Below, one piece after another: positions 4,151 through 24,605 of a DNA stretch of 33,180 nucleotides. Position numbers and translations under genes: made by a program. Every line of letters begins with the position of its first letter. Position 1 is the first letter of the stretch. Origin of the DNA: a virus; IMG/VR virus record IMGVR_UViG_3300044987_001824, positions 1 through 33,180 of that record; one strand, given 5' to 3'. Below the pieces are notes generated by a model that saw only the letters and a list, made by a program, of their open reading frames with translations, had not been told where the DNA came from and made no database searches.

Positions 4151-4361
4151 AATAAAATGTTTATGGTCTATGATATTCAATAGACCCTTAGTAGTTCTAG
4201 TAGACCATGATGGTGAGAAGTCTGTTAGGTTGGGTGAATACACCGAGAATGGCTTTTTTGCCTATAGATTCTCCTTTACTAGGATTAGATTAATGCCTAA
4301 GGGAGAAACTCAGGGTGCATCTTATGTACTAAGATGGTACTATGGTGAAAATATATGCTAA
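4122..4361 (+). CDS. hypothetical protein, start uncertain
   Basis: A 79-residue basic protein with a hydrophobic stretch (FNRPLVVLVD) and a body rich in Arg, Gly and aromatic residues. Possible starts are ATGs at 4122, 4134 and 4170. AAGG upstream weakly supports 4122, but this overlaps the 36-residue frame, so a later start is possible. It overlaps the next gene by 7 bases. No function recognised. Confidence 0.45.
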   Translation: MITRMCLKNKIKCLWSMIFNRPLVVLVDHDGEKSVRLGEYTENGFFAYRFSFTRIRLMPKGETQGASYVLRWYYGENIC

Positions 4362-4684
4362 CAAGTGAGACGAAATCTCTAATTAAAGAGTTCTTCAAAG
4401 AAGACCCCACGCAAGATAATATACAGTTTCTTAGTCAGAAATTTGATACTTCTACTAGGAGTATCATAGCTATTCTTACTGCGGCTGGTCTATATAAGAA
4501 GCCCGGGTATCTTACAAAAACTGGTGAGAAACCCATTCCTAAGCAGGAAATTGTAGATTTAATAGCTAAAGCTATGAAAGTTCCACCAGATACTTTAGAA
4601 GGTCTAGAGAAGACTAATAAATCAGTGCTTAGGCTTTTGCTAAAGGCTCTGGATAAAAGTTCTGATGAATACTTCCGACCATAA
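4355..4684 (+). CDS. HTH-like phage protein, copy 1 of a two-member family
   Basis: A 109-residue protein whose N-terminal half reads like a helix-turn-helix (FLSQKFDTSTRSIIAILTAA) followed by LYKKPGYLTKTGEKP. The leftward gene at 19331-19735 carries the same arrangement (FAAKFNKSVASIRAKLVKEG, VYKKAEYVSKAGETP), then a matching helical segment (QEIVDLIAKAM versus ENLVDQIALFI) and a Leu/Lys-rich tail. These are clearly paralogues. A DNA-binding or regulatory role is inferred from the HTH-like pattern only. It is the last gene of its operon, directly before the promoter of the structured RNA. Confidence 0.65.
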   Translation: MLTSETKSLIKEFFKEDPTQDNIQFLSQKFDTSTRSIIAILTAAGLYKKPGYLTKTGEKPIPKQEIVDLIAKAMKVPPDTLEGLEKTNKSVLRLLLKALDKSSDEYFRP

Positions 4685-4692
4685 AAATTAAC

Positions 4693-4721
4693 TTGACTTT
4701 TTTAGTCGAGTATACTATAAT
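4693..4721 (+). promoter_or_regulatory. strong promoter of the 4.7-5.1 kb RNA
   Basis: TTGACT (4693-4698), exactly 17 bases, TATAAT (4716-4721), the best core promoter in the left half. No start codon with a ribosome site follows; it reads into the structured RNA. Confidence 0.8.
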
Positions 4722-4727
4722 ATGTTT

Positions 4728-5090
4728 TCAAGAGTTGGATAACGTGAGTAATACTACAAGCAGGCGGTAAAATGATAAACCGCTAAGTCTGCTATTCCTT
4801 CTCAGACCTTTCAACTTCTTGACTTTAGGGTTTCCCTGGCCTCCCCACTAATATAAAGGCTAGAGGTAGAAGACCTACCCTTGTTGGGTTGCTATCTAGG
4901 CATAGAGACCAACTCATTCGGTAGTTACATGCTTCTACTAGGTGATCTTGAGTGTCGTAATACCTCTAAGATAACGCACGCCAGCTCCGCAAGAGCATAA
5001 AGAAAAATTACTGGGTTGTTTTCAAGCTTTTCTCTCATATCAAAGAAAAGCTCACAGATTCAAATAAAAGCCAGCTAGTCTGGCTTTTTT
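4728..5090 (+). ncRNA. structured non-coding RNA of about 360 nt, unknown class
   Basis: A complete transcription unit without an open frame: promoter at 4693-4721, intrinsic terminator at 5066-5090. Pairings seen by eye: TCAAGAGTTG near 4728-4738 with CAACTTCTTGA near 4812-4822; within it GCGGT/ACCGC with a 10-nt loop, flanked by GCAG/CTGC; AGGG/CCCT; GGTAG/CTACC; CCC/GGG; ATCTT/AAGAT near 4945-4972; GCTC/GAGC near 4984-4996; AGCTTTTCT/AGAAAAGCT near 5026-5050. It lacks the tRNA-like ends of tmRNA and the conserved core of RNase P RNA. Phages are known to carry large ornate RNAs, and this may be one, but I cannot assign a class. Confidence 0.65.
5066..5090 (+). terminator. intrinsic terminator of the structured RNA
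   Basis: AAAAGCCAG (5066-5074), loop CTAGT, CTGGCTTTT (5080-5088), continuing in a T tract to 5090. Confidence 0.85.
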
Positions 5091-5125
5091 CTTATCTACA
5101 GTGTGTCACCAGGAATCCATAATAT

Positions 5126-5800
5126 ATGGCAAAACCTCAAAGAGTTCGTAAGCAAGCAGATAATCTATACATTAGAGGTATTAAACCCCTAACCTATGCA
5201 CAAAAACAAATGTTTGAAGCATGGGAAGATGGTTATAATATTATAGCTTCAGGCTCCGCCGGAACAGGCAAAACATTTCTAGCTACTTATTTAGCTTTAA
5301 AATCCCTTTTTGCACAAGAAACCAGAGAAATCATCTTTGTTAGGTCAACAGTCTCAACCAGAGATATGGGTTTTCTGCCTGGTACGGCGGAGGAAAAAGC
5401 TGCTCCTTACTTTGAACTATATAAAGATCATGTAAATCATATTTGTGATTCTGGAACAGCATGGGACTCTTTGTTACACCGTGGCTCTATCAGAACTGAA
5501 CCAACATCCTTTGTACGCGGAAGTACTTGGGAAGATGCTACCGTGGTAATTGATGAGTCACAAAACCTTACACGTCATGAATTATACTCCGTATTGACTA
5601 GACTAGGCAATAATTCAAGAGTTCTAGTATTAGGTGATGCAAAGCAATCCGACCTTCCCAAAGGTTCTAGCTCAGAGTACCTAAAGCACCTAGCCAATAA
5701 GATGGTTGATGATTTCGAACTGGTGAACTTTACACACCAAGATATCGTGCGCTCAGCTTTCTGTAAAGCACTTATTATCGCAGATTCAGAGATATTATAA
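5126..5800 (+). CDS. phoH: PhoH-like P-loop ATPase
   Basis: A 224-residue PhoH-family protein: N-terminal (I/L)TYAQK.. motif, Walker A GSAGTGKT (43-50), IIFVRSTV, the MGFLPGT signature, Walker B VVIDESQN, and GDAKQSDLP sensor region. These are the standard landmarks of phage PhoH, a RecA-like ATPase common in marine and freshwater phages; its biochemical role in infection is unresolved. AGGAA precedes the ATG by 10 bases. No promoter is evident between the RNA terminator (5090) and this gene, so expression may rely on read-through. A strong terminator follows directly. Confidence 0.93.
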   Translation: MAKPQRVRKQADNLYIRGIKPLTYAQKQMFEAWEDGYNIIASGSAGTGKTFLATYLALKSLFAQETREIIFVRSTVSTRDMGFLPGTAEEKAAPYFELYKDHVNHICDSGTAWDSLLHRGSIRTEPTSFVRGSTWEDATVVIDESQNLTRHELYSVLTRLGNNSRVLVLGDAKQSDLPKGSSSEYLKHLANKMVDDFELVNFTHQDIVRSAFCKALIIADSEIL

Positions 5801-5803
5801 ATT

Positions 5804-5833
5804 AACGCTCAAGATTTCGGTCTTGAGCGTTTT
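5804..5833 (+). terminator. intrinsic terminator after phoH, overlapping the next promoter
   Basis: AACGCTCAAGA (5804-5814), loop TTTCGG, TCTTGAGCGTT (5821-5831) and a short T run: an 11-bp perfect stem. Its 3' arm contains the -35 box of the following promoter. Confidence 0.88.
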
Positions 5834-5851
5834 CGTTTAGTAATCTATAAT
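5823..5851 (+). promoter_or_regulatory. promoter with -35 box inside the terminator stem
   Basis: TTGAGC (5823-5828), 17 bases, TATAAT (5846-5851), 27 bases before the next start codon. Same architecture as at 11530 and 12993. Confidence 0.78.
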
Positions 5852-7705: not shown

Positions 7706-7723
7706 AGCTTAACAAAGTATAAT
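7695..7723 (+). promoter_or_regulatory. promoter for the NAMPT-like gene
   Basis: TTGAAA (7695-7700) inside the end of the macro-domain gene, 17 bases, TATAAT (7718-7723), start codon 27 bases further. Confidence 0.75.
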
Positions 7724-7750
7724 TATTAATCTGAAAAAAGGAAATTAAAT

Positions 7751-9244
7751 ATGACTAATACAACTATGACTGCTACCGACTTCTACAAAGTCGGACACAT
7801 CTTTCAATACCCACAAGGTACTGAGTACGTTTACTCTAACTGGACAGCACGTTCAGCCGATAAATTTAAAGGTTTTGATGACTTTGATAATAAAGTCGTA
7901 TTCTTTGGGCTTCAAGCGTTCATTAAGCGTTTCCTAGTTAAAGAATGGAATGATAATTTCTTTAGTAAGCCAAAGGATGAAGTTGTTGGTAAATACCAGC
8001 GTCGTATGACGAATTCTATCGGCCCTATCGATGTTTCTCACTTTGAGGCTCTTCACGATCTAGGCTACCTGCCTCTTAATATTAAAGCACTACCAGAAGG
8101 TTCTCGTGTTAATATTCGTGTACCAATGTTTACCATTGTTAATACACATCCTGATTTCTTCTGGCTTACTAACTACTTTGAAACAGCTATCTCAGCAGAA
8201 GTATGGCAAACCTGTACTTCGGCCACAATCGCCTACGAATTCCGCCGGCTAATGAACAAATTCGCCAAACTTACTGGAACTCCTAGTGATTTTGTGCAAT
8301 GGCAAGGTCACGATTTCTCAATGCGTGGTATGTCCAGTCTTGATTCAGCTGCTAAATCTGGAGCTGCACACCTTCTTAGTTTTACTGGTACTGACACTAT
8401 CTCTGGCATTGATTTTCTAGAGGAATGGTATAATGCGAACTCTGATAAGGAACTTATTGGTGGTAGCGTTCCTGCTACTGAACACTCTGTCATGTCGGCA
8501 GGCGGCGAGGTTGACGAATTTAATACCTTTAAGCGCCTCATCACAGAAGTCTACCCTAGTGGTGTAGTTAGTATCGTTTCTGATACTTGGGATTTCTGGA
8601 ATGTTCTTACTAACATTGCACCTTCACTTAAGAATGAAATCCTAGCTCGTAAACCAAATGCTTTTGGTCTTGCTAAAGTTGTATTCCGCCCTGATTCTGG
8701 TGATCCTGTAAAGATTATTGTTGGTGATTGTGAGGCTGAGCCAGGTACTCCTGAATACAAAGGAGCTGTCCAAGTTCTTTGGGAACAGTTTGGTGGAACG
8801 CACACCTCTGAAGGCTTTAAGCAAGTACACGAGCGAGTTGGTCTGATTTATGGCGACAGCATCACACCTGACCGGGCTGCTCGGATTCTTAAAGGATTGG
8901 CTGATAAGGGTTTTGCTAGTGGTAACATTGTATTCGGTATTGGTTCTTACACTTACCAGTTCAATACTCGCGATACTTTTGGTTTTGCAATGAAAGCTAC
9001 ATGGGCAGTTGTAAACGGTATTGCGCGTGAGCTTTCAAAAGATCCAAAAACTGATAATGGTAACAAAAAGTCTGCTAAAGGACTACTACGGGTTGAAATT
9101 GAGATGGTAAGTAAAGACTTCTTCCTATATGACCAACAGTCTGAGTTTGAAGAAAAGGACGGACAGCTAGTGACAGTATTCTGTGATGGAAAACTGATTG
9201 GTAAGCAATCACTGGCGGATATTAGAGGAAATCTATGGGGTTGA
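7751..9244 (+). CDS. nadV: nicotinamide phosphoribosyltransferase-like enzyme (NAMPT/NadV family; possible NARP1 transferase)
   Basis: A 497-residue full-length NAMPT-family protein. Landmarks: TDFYKVGHIFQYPQGTEYVY at the N-terminus, HDFSMRGMSS, GTDTISG, the catalytic-type histidine in ATEHSVM (H245), SIVSDTWDFW, RPDSGDP, YGDSIT, FGIGSYTYQ, and a basic C-terminal substrate region. NAMPT makes NMN from nicotinamide and PRPP; the NARP1 relative uses ADP-ribose pyrophosphate to make NAD+ directly. It has a promoter of its own (7695-7723) and AAAGGAAAT before the ATG. It ends in an overlap with small genes of unknown function. The symbol follows the family name; the true acceptor is unproven. Confidence 0.92.
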   Translation: MTNTTMTATDFYKVGHIFQYPQGTEYVYSNWTARSADKFKGFDDFDNKVVFFGLQAFIKRFLVKEWNDNFFSKPKDEVVGKYQRRMTNSIGPIDVSHFEALHDLGYLPLNIKALPEGSRVNIRVPMFTIVNTHPDFFWLTNYFETAISAEVWQTCTSATIAYEFRRLMNKFAKLTGTPSDFVQWQGHDFSMRGMSSLDSAAKSGAAHLLSFTGTDTISGIDFLEEWYNANSDKELIGGSVPATEHSVMSAGGEVDEFNTFKRLITEVYPSGVVSIVSDTWDFWNVLTNIAPSLKNEILARKPNAFGLAKVVFRPDSGDPVKIIVGDCEAEPGTPEYKGAVQVLWEQFGGTHTSEGFKQVHERVGLIYGDSITPDRAARILKGLADKGFASGNIVFGIGSYTYQFNTRDTFGFAMKATWAVVNGIARELSKDPKTDNGNKKSAKGLLRVEIEMVSKDFFLYDQQSEFEEKDGQLVTVFCDGKLIGKQSLADIRGNLWG

Positions 9245-11501: not shown

Positions 11502-11506
11502 TGAGC

Positions 11507-11541
11507 GCCTCAAGCGAAGAATTTCTAGCTTGAGGCTTTTT
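11507..11541 (+). terminator. terminator overlapping the next promoter
   Basis: GCCTCAAGC (11507-11515), 12-base loop, GCTTGAGGC (11528-11536), TTTTTG. The 3' arm carries the -35 box of the promoter below. Confidence 0.85.
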
Positions 11542-11558
11542 GCTTTATGCCTTATAAT
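11530..11558 (+). promoter_or_regulatory. promoter with -35 box inside the terminator stem
   Basis: TTGAGG (11530-11535), 17 bases, TATAAT (11553-11558), start codon at 11587 behind AAAGGA. Confidence 0.78.
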
Positions 11559-12947: not shown

Positions 12948-12968
12948 AATTTTTTATATACCCCCGGT

Positions 12969-13004
12969 AGGCTCAGGTTAAGATTTCTTAGCTTGAGCCT
13001 ATTT
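12969..13004 (+). terminator. terminator-like hairpin overlapping the next promoter
   Basis: AGGCTCAGGTTAAG (12969-12982), loop ATTT, CTTAGCTTGAGCCT (12987-13000): 14 pairs, two of them G-U. The T run is poor (ATTTGCGTTTT). Confidence 0.7.
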
Positions 13005-13021
13005 GCGTTTTGCCGTATAAT
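12993..13021 (+). promoter_or_regulatory. promoter with -35 box inside the hairpin stem
   Basis: TTGAGC (12993-12998), 17 bases, TATAAT (13016-13021), start codon at 13054 behind AAAGGTGA. Confidence 0.78.
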
Positions 13022-16689: not shown

Positions 16690-17305
16690 ATTTGGGGTAG
16701 CACCTCAGATTTTCAAGTGTAAAATTTTCTTACCCCAAATCTCAAAAGTCGCTAAAATTGCCAATAATTGCCTGAAACATACGACCCCAAATCGCAAAAA
16801 GTGCTATAATAGTCGAAATTGACCCCAAATCGCTGAAATTGTCTATTATTCTCGGTTTTGCTCGGAATTTGTCATAATTTCATCAATTTGGGGTAAGAAG
16901 AATAAATTTGATCTTGACAATGCCTCGGGTTCTTTAGTATAATGGGCGCAGACCACACAAATTTTGAACTTGAATCGGTTTTTCACTGGCGGGCGCAGAA
17001 TTCTCAACTTGAATCGCTTTTCGACTTAGCACTCGGCGCAAAACGTTTCGAATTTCGACTTTGCACTAAGGCGCAGGTCGCGACCTCGCTTGATAATGAT
17101 TCTCATTCTCATTCTCATTCCGGCGGACCGAAATGGGAATCATTCGCGTTTGACCCCAAATCGGACAAAAAGGTCTTAATATCCCAAATTGGCCTAAAAG
17201 GACAAAAAGGTCTTAATATATTTAATACCTAAAGATCCGAATGTCGGGTATAAATTTGGCTTATGGGGTCATAAAAAAATTTGCCCTTGCTTTGCGATTT
17301 GGGGT
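16690..17305. repeat. cluster of six ATTTGGGGT / ACCCCAAAT motifs
   Basis: Exact copies at 16690-16698 (+), 16732-16740 (-), 16784-16792 (-), 16822-16830 (-), 16886-16894 (+), 17153-17161 (-) and 17297-17305 (+); the first six lie within about 470 bases and the seventh at the right edge. Ten further copies are dispersed over the window (see findings). Confidence 0.85.
16914..16943 (+). promoter_or_regulatory. rightward island-type promoter 1
   Basis: TTGACA (16914-16919), 18 bases, TATAAT (16938-16943), followed directly by GGGCGCAGACC. Same layout (18-base spacer, GGCGC just after the -10 box) as at 20058, 21286 and 22531. Confidence 0.72.
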
Positions 17306-20057: not shown

Positions 20058-20087
20058 TTGACAACGCCCGCCGGGGCGTGGTAAAAT
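20058..20087 (+). promoter_or_regulatory. rightward island-type promoter 2
   Basis: TTGACA (20058-20063), 18 bases, TAAAAT (20082-20087), followed by CGGCGCCCACC. The transcript would begin with a hairpin ATTTTTATG/CATAAAAAT (20108-20129) and meet a terminator-like repeat at 20176. Confidence 0.72.
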
Positions 20088-22530: not shown

Positions 22531-22560
22531 TTGACAGTCTATAGGCTGCTATGGTAAAAT
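22531..22560 (+). promoter_or_regulatory. rightward island-type promoter 4
   Basis: TTGACA (22531-22536), 18 bases, TAAAAT (22555-22560), then CGGCGCCACA. Confidence 0.75.
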
Positions 22561-22566
22561 CGGCGC

Positions 22567-22638
22567 CACATTTAAGATAAAAGGATACGAATATCCTTTT
22601 ATGCTACTGTTAAAAGCCAGCTTTCGCTGGCTTCATTT
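22567..22638 (+). ncRNA. candidate short RNA of about 70 nt
   Basis: The rightward promoter at 22531 reads into a hairpin AAAAGGATA/TATCCTTTT (22579-22600) and then a terminator-type hairpin AAGCCAGC/GCTGGCTT (22614-22633), before the oppositely oriented gene. There is no reading frame with a ribosome site. The transcript's end overlaps the 3' side of the leftward gene 22637-22846. Confidence 0.45.
22614..22633. terminator. bidirectional terminator hairpin
   Basis: AAGCCAGC, loop TTTC, GCTGGCTT. Leftward it ends the 22637-22846 gene with TTTTAAC after the stem; rightward it is followed by CATTTAC, a weaker tail. Confidence 0.7.
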
Positions 22639-22846
22639 ACTGCTGCACGATCATGTTGCCATTGTGATCAAAGAAGCCGTTATCTTGTGCCAAGTGCAGA
22701 AGCTTGATAGTGGAGCTAAGATCCTCACCAGTCAATTGACGTAGGAGGATGCAAGCTTGAAGCTTAGAGATCTTACCTTGAACATACAGATTAAGTGCCA
22801 TTGCCTCAGCATGGTTAGAACAGTAAACAGTTTGAACGATTTGCAT
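22637..22846 (-). CDS. 69-residue hypothetical protein
   Basis: Single-gene operon: promoter at 22878-22905, AAGGAAATGAA before the ATG at 22846, terminator right after the stop. Sequence begins MQIVQTVYCSNHAEAMALNL; the middle (KISKLQACILLRQLTGEDLS) could be helical. Unknown family. Confidence 0.62.
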   Translation of the reverse strand: MQIVQTVYCSNHAEAMALNLYVQGKISKLQACILLRQLTGEDLSSTIKLLHLAQDNGFFDHNGNMIVQQ

Positions 22847-23244: not shown

Positions 23245-23709
23245 ATGTCCAAACCTAATGAGTTGGTCCCTATATCTCCCGAAGCTCTAGAGATATTGAA
23301 TGTATATCTGCAGACGCAGGATATTAATGCTACTGCTAGAGAGCTGGACATACACCCCACGCAAGTCTCACAATACCTTAGAAAATCAGAAGTTAAGAAC
23401 TACCTAGATCACGTCTACCTTAGTGCTGGATACCGTAACCGCGATAAATTAGCTCTTGCATTCGACGACCTCATTGAGAAGAAACTAGAAGAAATGATGG
23501 AAACCGGTTTAGGGTCTACTAAAGATATTTCTGAGCTATTAATGATGCAGCATAAAATTCGTATGGAAGAATTAAAAGCTATGGCTGATATTGAAAAAAT
23601 TAGAGAAGGTAGCATACGTAAACAAACAAACGTACAAATTAATACTGGTGGCTCACCGTATGGAGAAGGCCAGTATGGTGCTTTACTAGGTCAGCTTTTA
23701 TCTCAGTAA
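23245..23709 (+). CDS. terS: terminase small subunit
   Basis: A 154-residue protein with an N-terminal helix-turn-helix (INATARELDIHPTQVSQYLR, residues ~30-50), a long helical middle for oligomerisation, and a Gly-rich tail. Size, HTH and position directly before the large subunit (separated only by an inserted HNH gene) support a DNA-recognising small terminase. No Shine-Dalgarno-like sequence precedes the ATG (CTTCCCCTT), so the start is not certain; the next ATG is at residue 85, too late. Confidence 0.8.
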   Translation: MSKPNELVPISPEALEILNVYLQTQDINATARELDIHPTQVSQYLRKSEVKNYLDHVYLSAGYRNRDKLALAFDDLIEKKLEEMMETGLGSTKDISELLMMQHKIRMEELKAMADIEKIREGSIRKQTNVQINTGGSPYGEGQYGALLGQLLSQ

Positions 23710-23772: not shown

Positions 23773-23852
23773 GGGTGAACCGAGCCTGCAGCTCTTTCCT
23801 AGTGCCTTTACACTGGGATAGCCCTACCAATAAAAGTCTTAAAGGAGACAAA
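23773..23852 (+). promoter_or_regulatory. structured leader of HNH gene A
   Basis: Three-way-junction fold by eye: GGGT/GCCC (23773-23776 with 23821-23824), GAGC/GCTC (23782-23785 with 23791-23794), CCTAGTG/CACTGGG (23798-23804 with 23811-23817), with ATA joining the last strand to the first stem. Next, GTCT/AGAC encloses the ribosome site AAAGG. The same fold with changed bases precedes the HNH gene at 26469. Confidence 0.6.
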
Positions 23853-24605
23853 ATGGTTGTTGATGAAATTTATGATGTGTTAGTTTCACGGTTTGGGGTT
23901 GGTGAAGTTTTTTCACATAATACAACGTGGAAAGAGTTCATAACATATGTAGTTATAGATAGCTGTTCAATGGATAGTTTAGCAACTAAGTGTGGATACT
24001 CACATTCTAGTGGTCTTAGCAGGTATACTACCAAACAATTTAAACATATTAAAGAAGATAAAAAACTAAAACCATGGAAAACTTATCTTACTTCTTTAGT
24101 AGAAATGAAAAAGTGTCCAAGCTGCAATGAAATAAAACCACTAAGTAACTTTAGTATTAATACTGCTATTTGTAAAAACTGTGATAATAATAAAAGAGCT
24201 ACATATGTAGAAAACAGTAGAGAAAAAGTTCTAAGTAAATCAAAAATCTATTATCAAAACAATAAAGAAAGTAGGTTACTATCAAATAGATGGTATAGGT
24301 TACTTAATAGTGAATCAATAGCAGAACAAAAGAAAGAGTATCATAAAAAGTATTATCAAGAGCATAAATACTTATATAATGCGAAAAATGCTAAACGTAG
24401 AGCTACAAAACTACAAGCCACCCCAAAGTGGGCAAATCTGATAGCTATAAAAGAAATTTATCAAACTTGCCCTCCTGGTTATCACGTAGACCATATAGTT
24501 CCATTACAAGGTAAATTAGTATGTGGATTACATTGCGAATTCAATCTCCAACATCTGTCAGCTAGTGAGAATTTAAGTAAAGGAAATAGGTTTGAAGTAT
24601 GTTAA
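23853..24605 (+). CDS. free-standing HNH homing endonuclease A
   Basis: A 250-residue protein: a variable N-terminal domain (MVVDEIYDVLVSRFGV...), a zinc pair CPSC ... CKNC (~residues 88-110), a Lys/Tyr-rich spacer, and a C-terminal HNH nuclease core YHVDHIVPL ... CGLHCEFNLQHLSASENLSK. The gene sits between the two terminase genes and overlaps the large subunit by 7 bases, typical for intergenic homing genes. Start at 23853 follows AAAGGAGAC; an in-frame ATG at 23775 would begin inside the leader structure. A paralogue lies at 26469. Confidence 0.85.
   Translation: MVVDEIYDVLVSRFGVGEVFSHNTTWKEFITYVVIDSCSMDSLATKCGYSHSSGLSRYTTKQFKHIKEDKKLKPWKTYLTSLVEMKKCPSCNEIKPLSNFSINTAICKNCDNNKRATYVENSREKVLSKSKIYYQNNKESRLLSNRWYRLLNSESIAEQKKEYHKKYYQEHKYLYNAKNAKRRATKLQATPKWANLIAIKEIYQTCPPGYHVDHIVPLQGKLVCGLHCEFNLQHLSASENLSKGNRFEVC

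Follow-up and report, generated by a model that had tools for sequence, protein, structure and literature searches.

Between a 109-amino-acid ORF (4355 to 4684, plus strand) and phoH (5126 to 5800, plus strand), the viral record analyzed in this study carries 440 bases in which no ORF exceeds 39 amino acids, and the question that this locus raises is whether the stretch specifies an RNA and, if so, what that RNA might do. The analyzed DNA, referred to here as the window, is the 33-kb record at its full length (33,180 nucleotides); it encodes a terminase large subunit approximately 50% identical to the homologues from T5-like phages, and the source phage appears to be distantly related to T5. 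The initial annotation had placed the stretch between an HTH-like gene and phoH. The identification of phoH is secure (PF02562, 1e-46); the label HTH-like is plausible only, because the 109-amino-acid ORF has no match in Pfam or PHROG and its low-confidence structure model gave nothing beyond weak, nonsignificant matches of the winged-HTH type.

A sigma70-type promoter, TTGACT-17-TATAAT (4693 to 4721, plus strand; 11/12), begins 9 bases downstream of the end of the 109-amino-acid ORF, and its spacing places the expected transcription start at about 4728 to 4732. The window contains seven sites that score at least 11/12, all on the plus strand, against 1.4 expected from shuffles of both strands; therefore, the promoter class is real in this DNA. 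The six other strong promoters lie 24 to 30 nt upstream of a start codon, a placement that the promoter at 4693 does not share. Its -35 box is overlain by an imperfect inverted repeat, ACTTGACT-TTTTT-AGTCGAGT (4691 to 4711), which is present in a single copy in the window, where 0.36 such matches would be expected by chance; this repeat may serve as the operator of a phage repressor. At the other end of the stretch is an intrinsic terminator, AAAAGCCAG-CTAGT-CTGGCTTTT plus TT (5066 to 5090, plus strand), in which a perfect 9-bp stem (5066 to 5088) is followed by a T run to 5090 and the hairpin has a z score of -4.0. The near-consensus promoter and the strong terminator described in the initial annotation are thus both borne out.

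The intervening sequence (4728 to 5090, plus strand) would yield an untranslated transcript of approximately 360 nt. Its longest ORF, 39 amino acids, is at the level of shuffled sequence, and its best coding score is likewise at the shuffle level, lower than the 5% quantile for genuine coding slices, in agreement with the earlier statement that no reading frame is present. A hidden or decayed gene was ruled out by the same score, as no frame was coding-like. The GC content of the stretch is 42%, versus 38% for the window. A promoter, a noncoding stretch, and a hairpin with a T run together give this locus the layout of an RNA transcription unit. Like a trans-acting small RNA of a phage, the unit has, by sequence, its own promoter, an intrinsic terminator, and no ORF; that the unit is transcribed, and independently of phoH, we infer.

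Other transcription signals occur elsewhere in the window. The promoter cassette TTGACA-18-TAAAAT-[T/C]GGCGC is present in three copies (20058, 21286, and 22531), and a looser relative occurs at 16914; across the window and its relatives, the -10 box reads TAAAAT or TATAAT. The 18-base spacers between the -35 and -10 boxes (20064 to 20081 and 22537 to 22554, and those in L189, L190, L191, L194, and L195) vary in sequence between copies, and by eye an inverted repeat is kept in most copies in a shifting register (CCACA..TGTGG, CTCTAG..CTAGAG, and ACGCCC..GGGCGT). In the cassette at 22531 (22531 to 22640, plus strand), the promoter is followed by a 70- to 80-nt unit of two hairpins, GATAAAAGGATACGAATATCCTTTTAT and AAAAGCCAGCTTTCGCTGGCTT, which has relatives at L189:523, L190:517, L191:266, L194:624, and L195:186. 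The first hairpin is nearly invariant among the window and these five relatives, as is the second, except in L195. This unit is a candidate conserved RNA of about 75 nt; as a small-RNA or regulatory element, it seems to be better conserved than the RNA at 4728 to 5090. The window also has three fused terminator-promoter units (5804 to 5851, 11504 to 11558, and 12966 to 13021), in which the 3' arm of the terminator hairpin holds the -35 box (TTGAGC or TTGAGG) of the next gene's promoter.

We tentatively favor, with less than even confidence, the reading that positions 4728 to 5090 specify an independent base-pairing small RNA that acts in trans. It can be envisioned that an untranslated RNA of about 360 nt, started at the promoter at 4693 to 4721 and ended at the terminator at 5066 to 5090, would cover codons 4 to 10 of the terS mRNA (23253 to 23273) with its segment 4902 to 4922, and that this pairing would keep terS, a packaging gene, from premature translation. 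The strongest candidate target within the window lies at the start of terS, the gene for the terminase small subunit (23245 to 23709, plus strand; phrog_3802), to which the RNA segment ATAGAGACCAACTCATTCGGT is complementary at 19/21 positions in a comparison of the window with itself. Among 59 assumed translation starts this match ranked first (score 39; next, 29). Only 3 of 400 shuffled RNAs scored as well at translation starts, a restriction that was chosen after the match had been seen. The predicted RNA-terS duplex has an energy of -25.1 kcal/mol and opening costs of 9.8 and 4.5, for a net value of approximately -10.8; a scan of duplex energy across the whole window produced nothing but long, gapped duplexes that were uninformative. 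Both the complementarity and the statistics on it are read directly from the sequence; pairing in vivo and any regulatory effect we infer.

Nucleotide-level conservation of the proposed target was assessed in nine distinct relatives' sequences. Synonymous change was strongly reduced in codons 1 to 20 of terS (23245 to 23304), with 4 changes in 180 cells, compared with 6 to 26 per 84 to 90 cells in the later ten-codon blocks; the first 20 codons are therefore under some nucleotide-level constraint and probably overlap a signal in the DNA or RNA. Between the terminase small- and large-subunit genes lies an Endonuclease VII-like gene (23775 to 24602), which may be a mobile insertion of the homing type, because approximately 23901 to 24390 is unaligned in many sister contigs.

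Several observations count against a base-pairing RNA. The pairing segment (4902 to 4922) is mostly paired inside the RNA itself, 41 of 400 shuffled RNAs found an equally good match somewhere in the window, a pair would be lost through the site variants of the relatives L179/L186 and L181, terS is constrained over more than the pairing site, the RNA has no homologues, and phoH has no other promoter, which favors a leader. Antisense regulatory RNAs are known from phages and satellites, including P1, P7, N15, and P4 (as cited in PMC7567579). As in those systems, an untranslated RNA here is complementary to a gene start; unlike them, the match is to a distant packaging gene, is imperfect (19/21), and is weakly above chance. 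We therefore treat the terS complementarity as a lead rather than a result, and terS itself is improbable as the target. No likelier is the full proposal of a new timing RNA, in a phage with a T5-like terminase, that would be driven by sigma70, pair with the start of the terS mRNA, and delay DNA packaging until late infection.

A serious rival to a free RNA, although we consider it somewhat unlikely, is that the unit is a long 5' leader of phoH: the promoter at 4693 would drive phoH, and the terminator-bearing leader of 360 nt would limit or condition read-through by attenuation or partial termination. The unit may be such a leader because phoH starts 35 nt past the terminator without a promoter of its own. 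The gene is flanked by two terminators (5066 to 5088 and 5804 to 5831). From the first of these to the start codon there is no sigma70 promoter that could be used, the sole weak match there (5095 to 5123) stopping 2 nt short of the ATG. The six promoters with typical placement, unlike the one at 4693, also bear on this reading, as do three other terminators (5804, 11504, and 12966) that overlap the next gene's promoter, which the terminator at 5066 does not. The sequence agrees with a free-standing RNA gene in having a promoter and a terminator for it; the independence of that gene from phoH is uncertain.

Other evidence argues against a leader. When alternative pairings of the two terminator arms were sought, 312/500 and 350/500 shuffles did as well within the whole leader, and 180/500 and 49/500 did as well within the last 55 nt; an attenuator that works by base pairing was rejected, since neither arm has an antiterminator pairing beyond chance (500 shuffles). 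Because the default fold includes the terminator hairpin and no competing antiterminator was better than chance, most transcripts should stop at 5090. No known riboswitch or leader was matched in Rfam, phoH in the other phages examined lacks a long leader, and phoH could be served by middle or late promoters of another type or by read-through from upstream. The locus shares with attenuated 5' leaders of the riboswitch and leader-peptide kinds a promoter, a long untranslated leader, and a terminator just before an otherwise promoterless gene, but it differs from them in having no antiterminator beyond chance, no known riboswitch, and no convincing leader peptide. The two readings are compatible, since one promoter can give both a 360-nt RNA and a read-through phoH mRNA.

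Relatives of the proposed small RNA proved to be scarce. A covariance-model search, which the initial annotation had proposed as a check, matched no family at gathering scores among all 4227 Rfam models, and at E values up to 10 it returned subthreshold matches only, around the terminator. ARAGORN found no tRNA or tmRNA in the stretch; with the Rfam result, this rules out tRNA, tmRNA, RNase P RNA, and 6S RNA, as had been stated earlier. BLASTN of the RNA against 50,697 phage records and 72,556 plasmids gave no match. Sister loci were sought through the neighboring genes (the upstream ORF, phoH in contigs and genomes, NAMPT, terminase, and SprT), and the RNA was sought in 30 NAMPT-bearing and 30 terminase-bearing records. 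Seeds of 15 to 17 nt from the RNA gave only random matches in viral contigs and genomes outside one contig with an identical copy, each match being verified by BLAST and nhmmer or by BLAST. A literature search on small RNAs of T5-type phages found nothing.

The sole relative found is that contig, IMGVR_UViG_3300042507_003910, whose early region is 99.9% alike and whose RNA is identical. It differs by approximately 2% in terS and by 4% in the amino acid sequence of the terminase large subunit and is therefore a distinct phage; because its RNA is identical, it says nothing about constraint inside the RNA. Terminase matches define 22 contigs of sister phages (86 to 100% identity; one match is partial), and those searched among the others, which are at most about 21 kb long, contained neither the RNA nor phoH. 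The upstream ORF has homologues in a distant relative, L249 (IMGVR_UViG_3300046009_003988), which also carries homologues of SprT and of a metallophosphoesterase-like gene. In L249, a perfect consensus promoter of the same class as in the window is followed by approximately 680 ORF-free bases (7715 to 8425; z = -1.67), with no Rfam match and no similarity to the window's RNA.

The fold of the RNA is ordinary overall, at the background of the genome. Folded whole, 4728 to 5092 has a z score of -2.4, to which the terminator contributes part; without the terminator, the value is -1.36 and 35 of 400 shuffles are as good, against a mean of -1.33 (standard deviation, 1.64) for 162 other windows of the same 333-nt size. 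The only parts that fold beyond chance are the terminator, a 3' hairpin, AGCTTTTCT...AGAAAAGCT (an inverted repeat at 5025 to 5052, plus strand; z = -3.0 for 5015 to 5056), and a 96-nt 5' domain (4728 to 4823, plus strand; z = -3.8), whose closing stem, TCAAGAGTTGGA / TTTCAACTTCTTGA, encloses an inner hairpin and whose stability was reached by 0 of 400 shuffles. The central 177 nt (4824 to 5000; z = -0.95) are unremarkable. The helices, at least eight, that the initial annotation noted by eye can be drawn, but they are no sign of an ornate RNA.

These data bear on two further readings. One, which we regard as unlikely, is that the stretch is a relic, either spacer or the remains of a lost gene, that keeps a promoter and a terminator and has no RNA function. 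Its center folds like random sequence, no relatives were found, and the GTG of an 8-codon frame lies 23 nt past the promoter, at the usual spacing for this genome, as though an earlier gene had been cut short; however, no frame has a coding-like signal, the GC content is raised, the ends are clean at the promoter and the terminator, and the 5' domain folds beyond chance.

The other reading is the earlier proposal of a new, small class of ornate structured RNA resembling GOLLD, ROOL, or the RNA of ICP1. GOLLD and ROOL are large phage-borne RNAs without coding capacity. The present candidate is also phage borne and noncoding but is about half their size or less, with an ordinary fold, no Rfam match, and no homologues. 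The lytic phage ICP1 makes an abundant noncoding RNA of approximately 800 nt, of unknown function and without a named family, as shown by RNA-seq (PMC7567579). Both that RNA and ours are long, ORF-free transcripts of a phage with no tRNA genes nearby, whereas the ICP1 RNA was detected by RNA-seq and has about twice the length, and the window's transcript is predicted only. Although the 5' domain is well folded, a new class of this kind is quite improbable, given a fold at background with an unremarkable center, no Rfam similarity, no homologue beyond one identical copy, and a size less than half that of the ICP1 RNA.

In conclusion, the stretch between the 109-amino-acid ORF and phoH is a candidate orphan noncoding RNA gene of a phage. 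Small RNAs of phages are poorly cataloged because many are orphans without homologues, and the role of phoH, which is common in phages, is unclear. Should the unit turn out to be the leader of phoH, it would open a way to study how that gene is controlled; as an RNA unit with a candidate target that can be named, it may provide a handle on whether phages with T5-like terminases time packaging by RNA.
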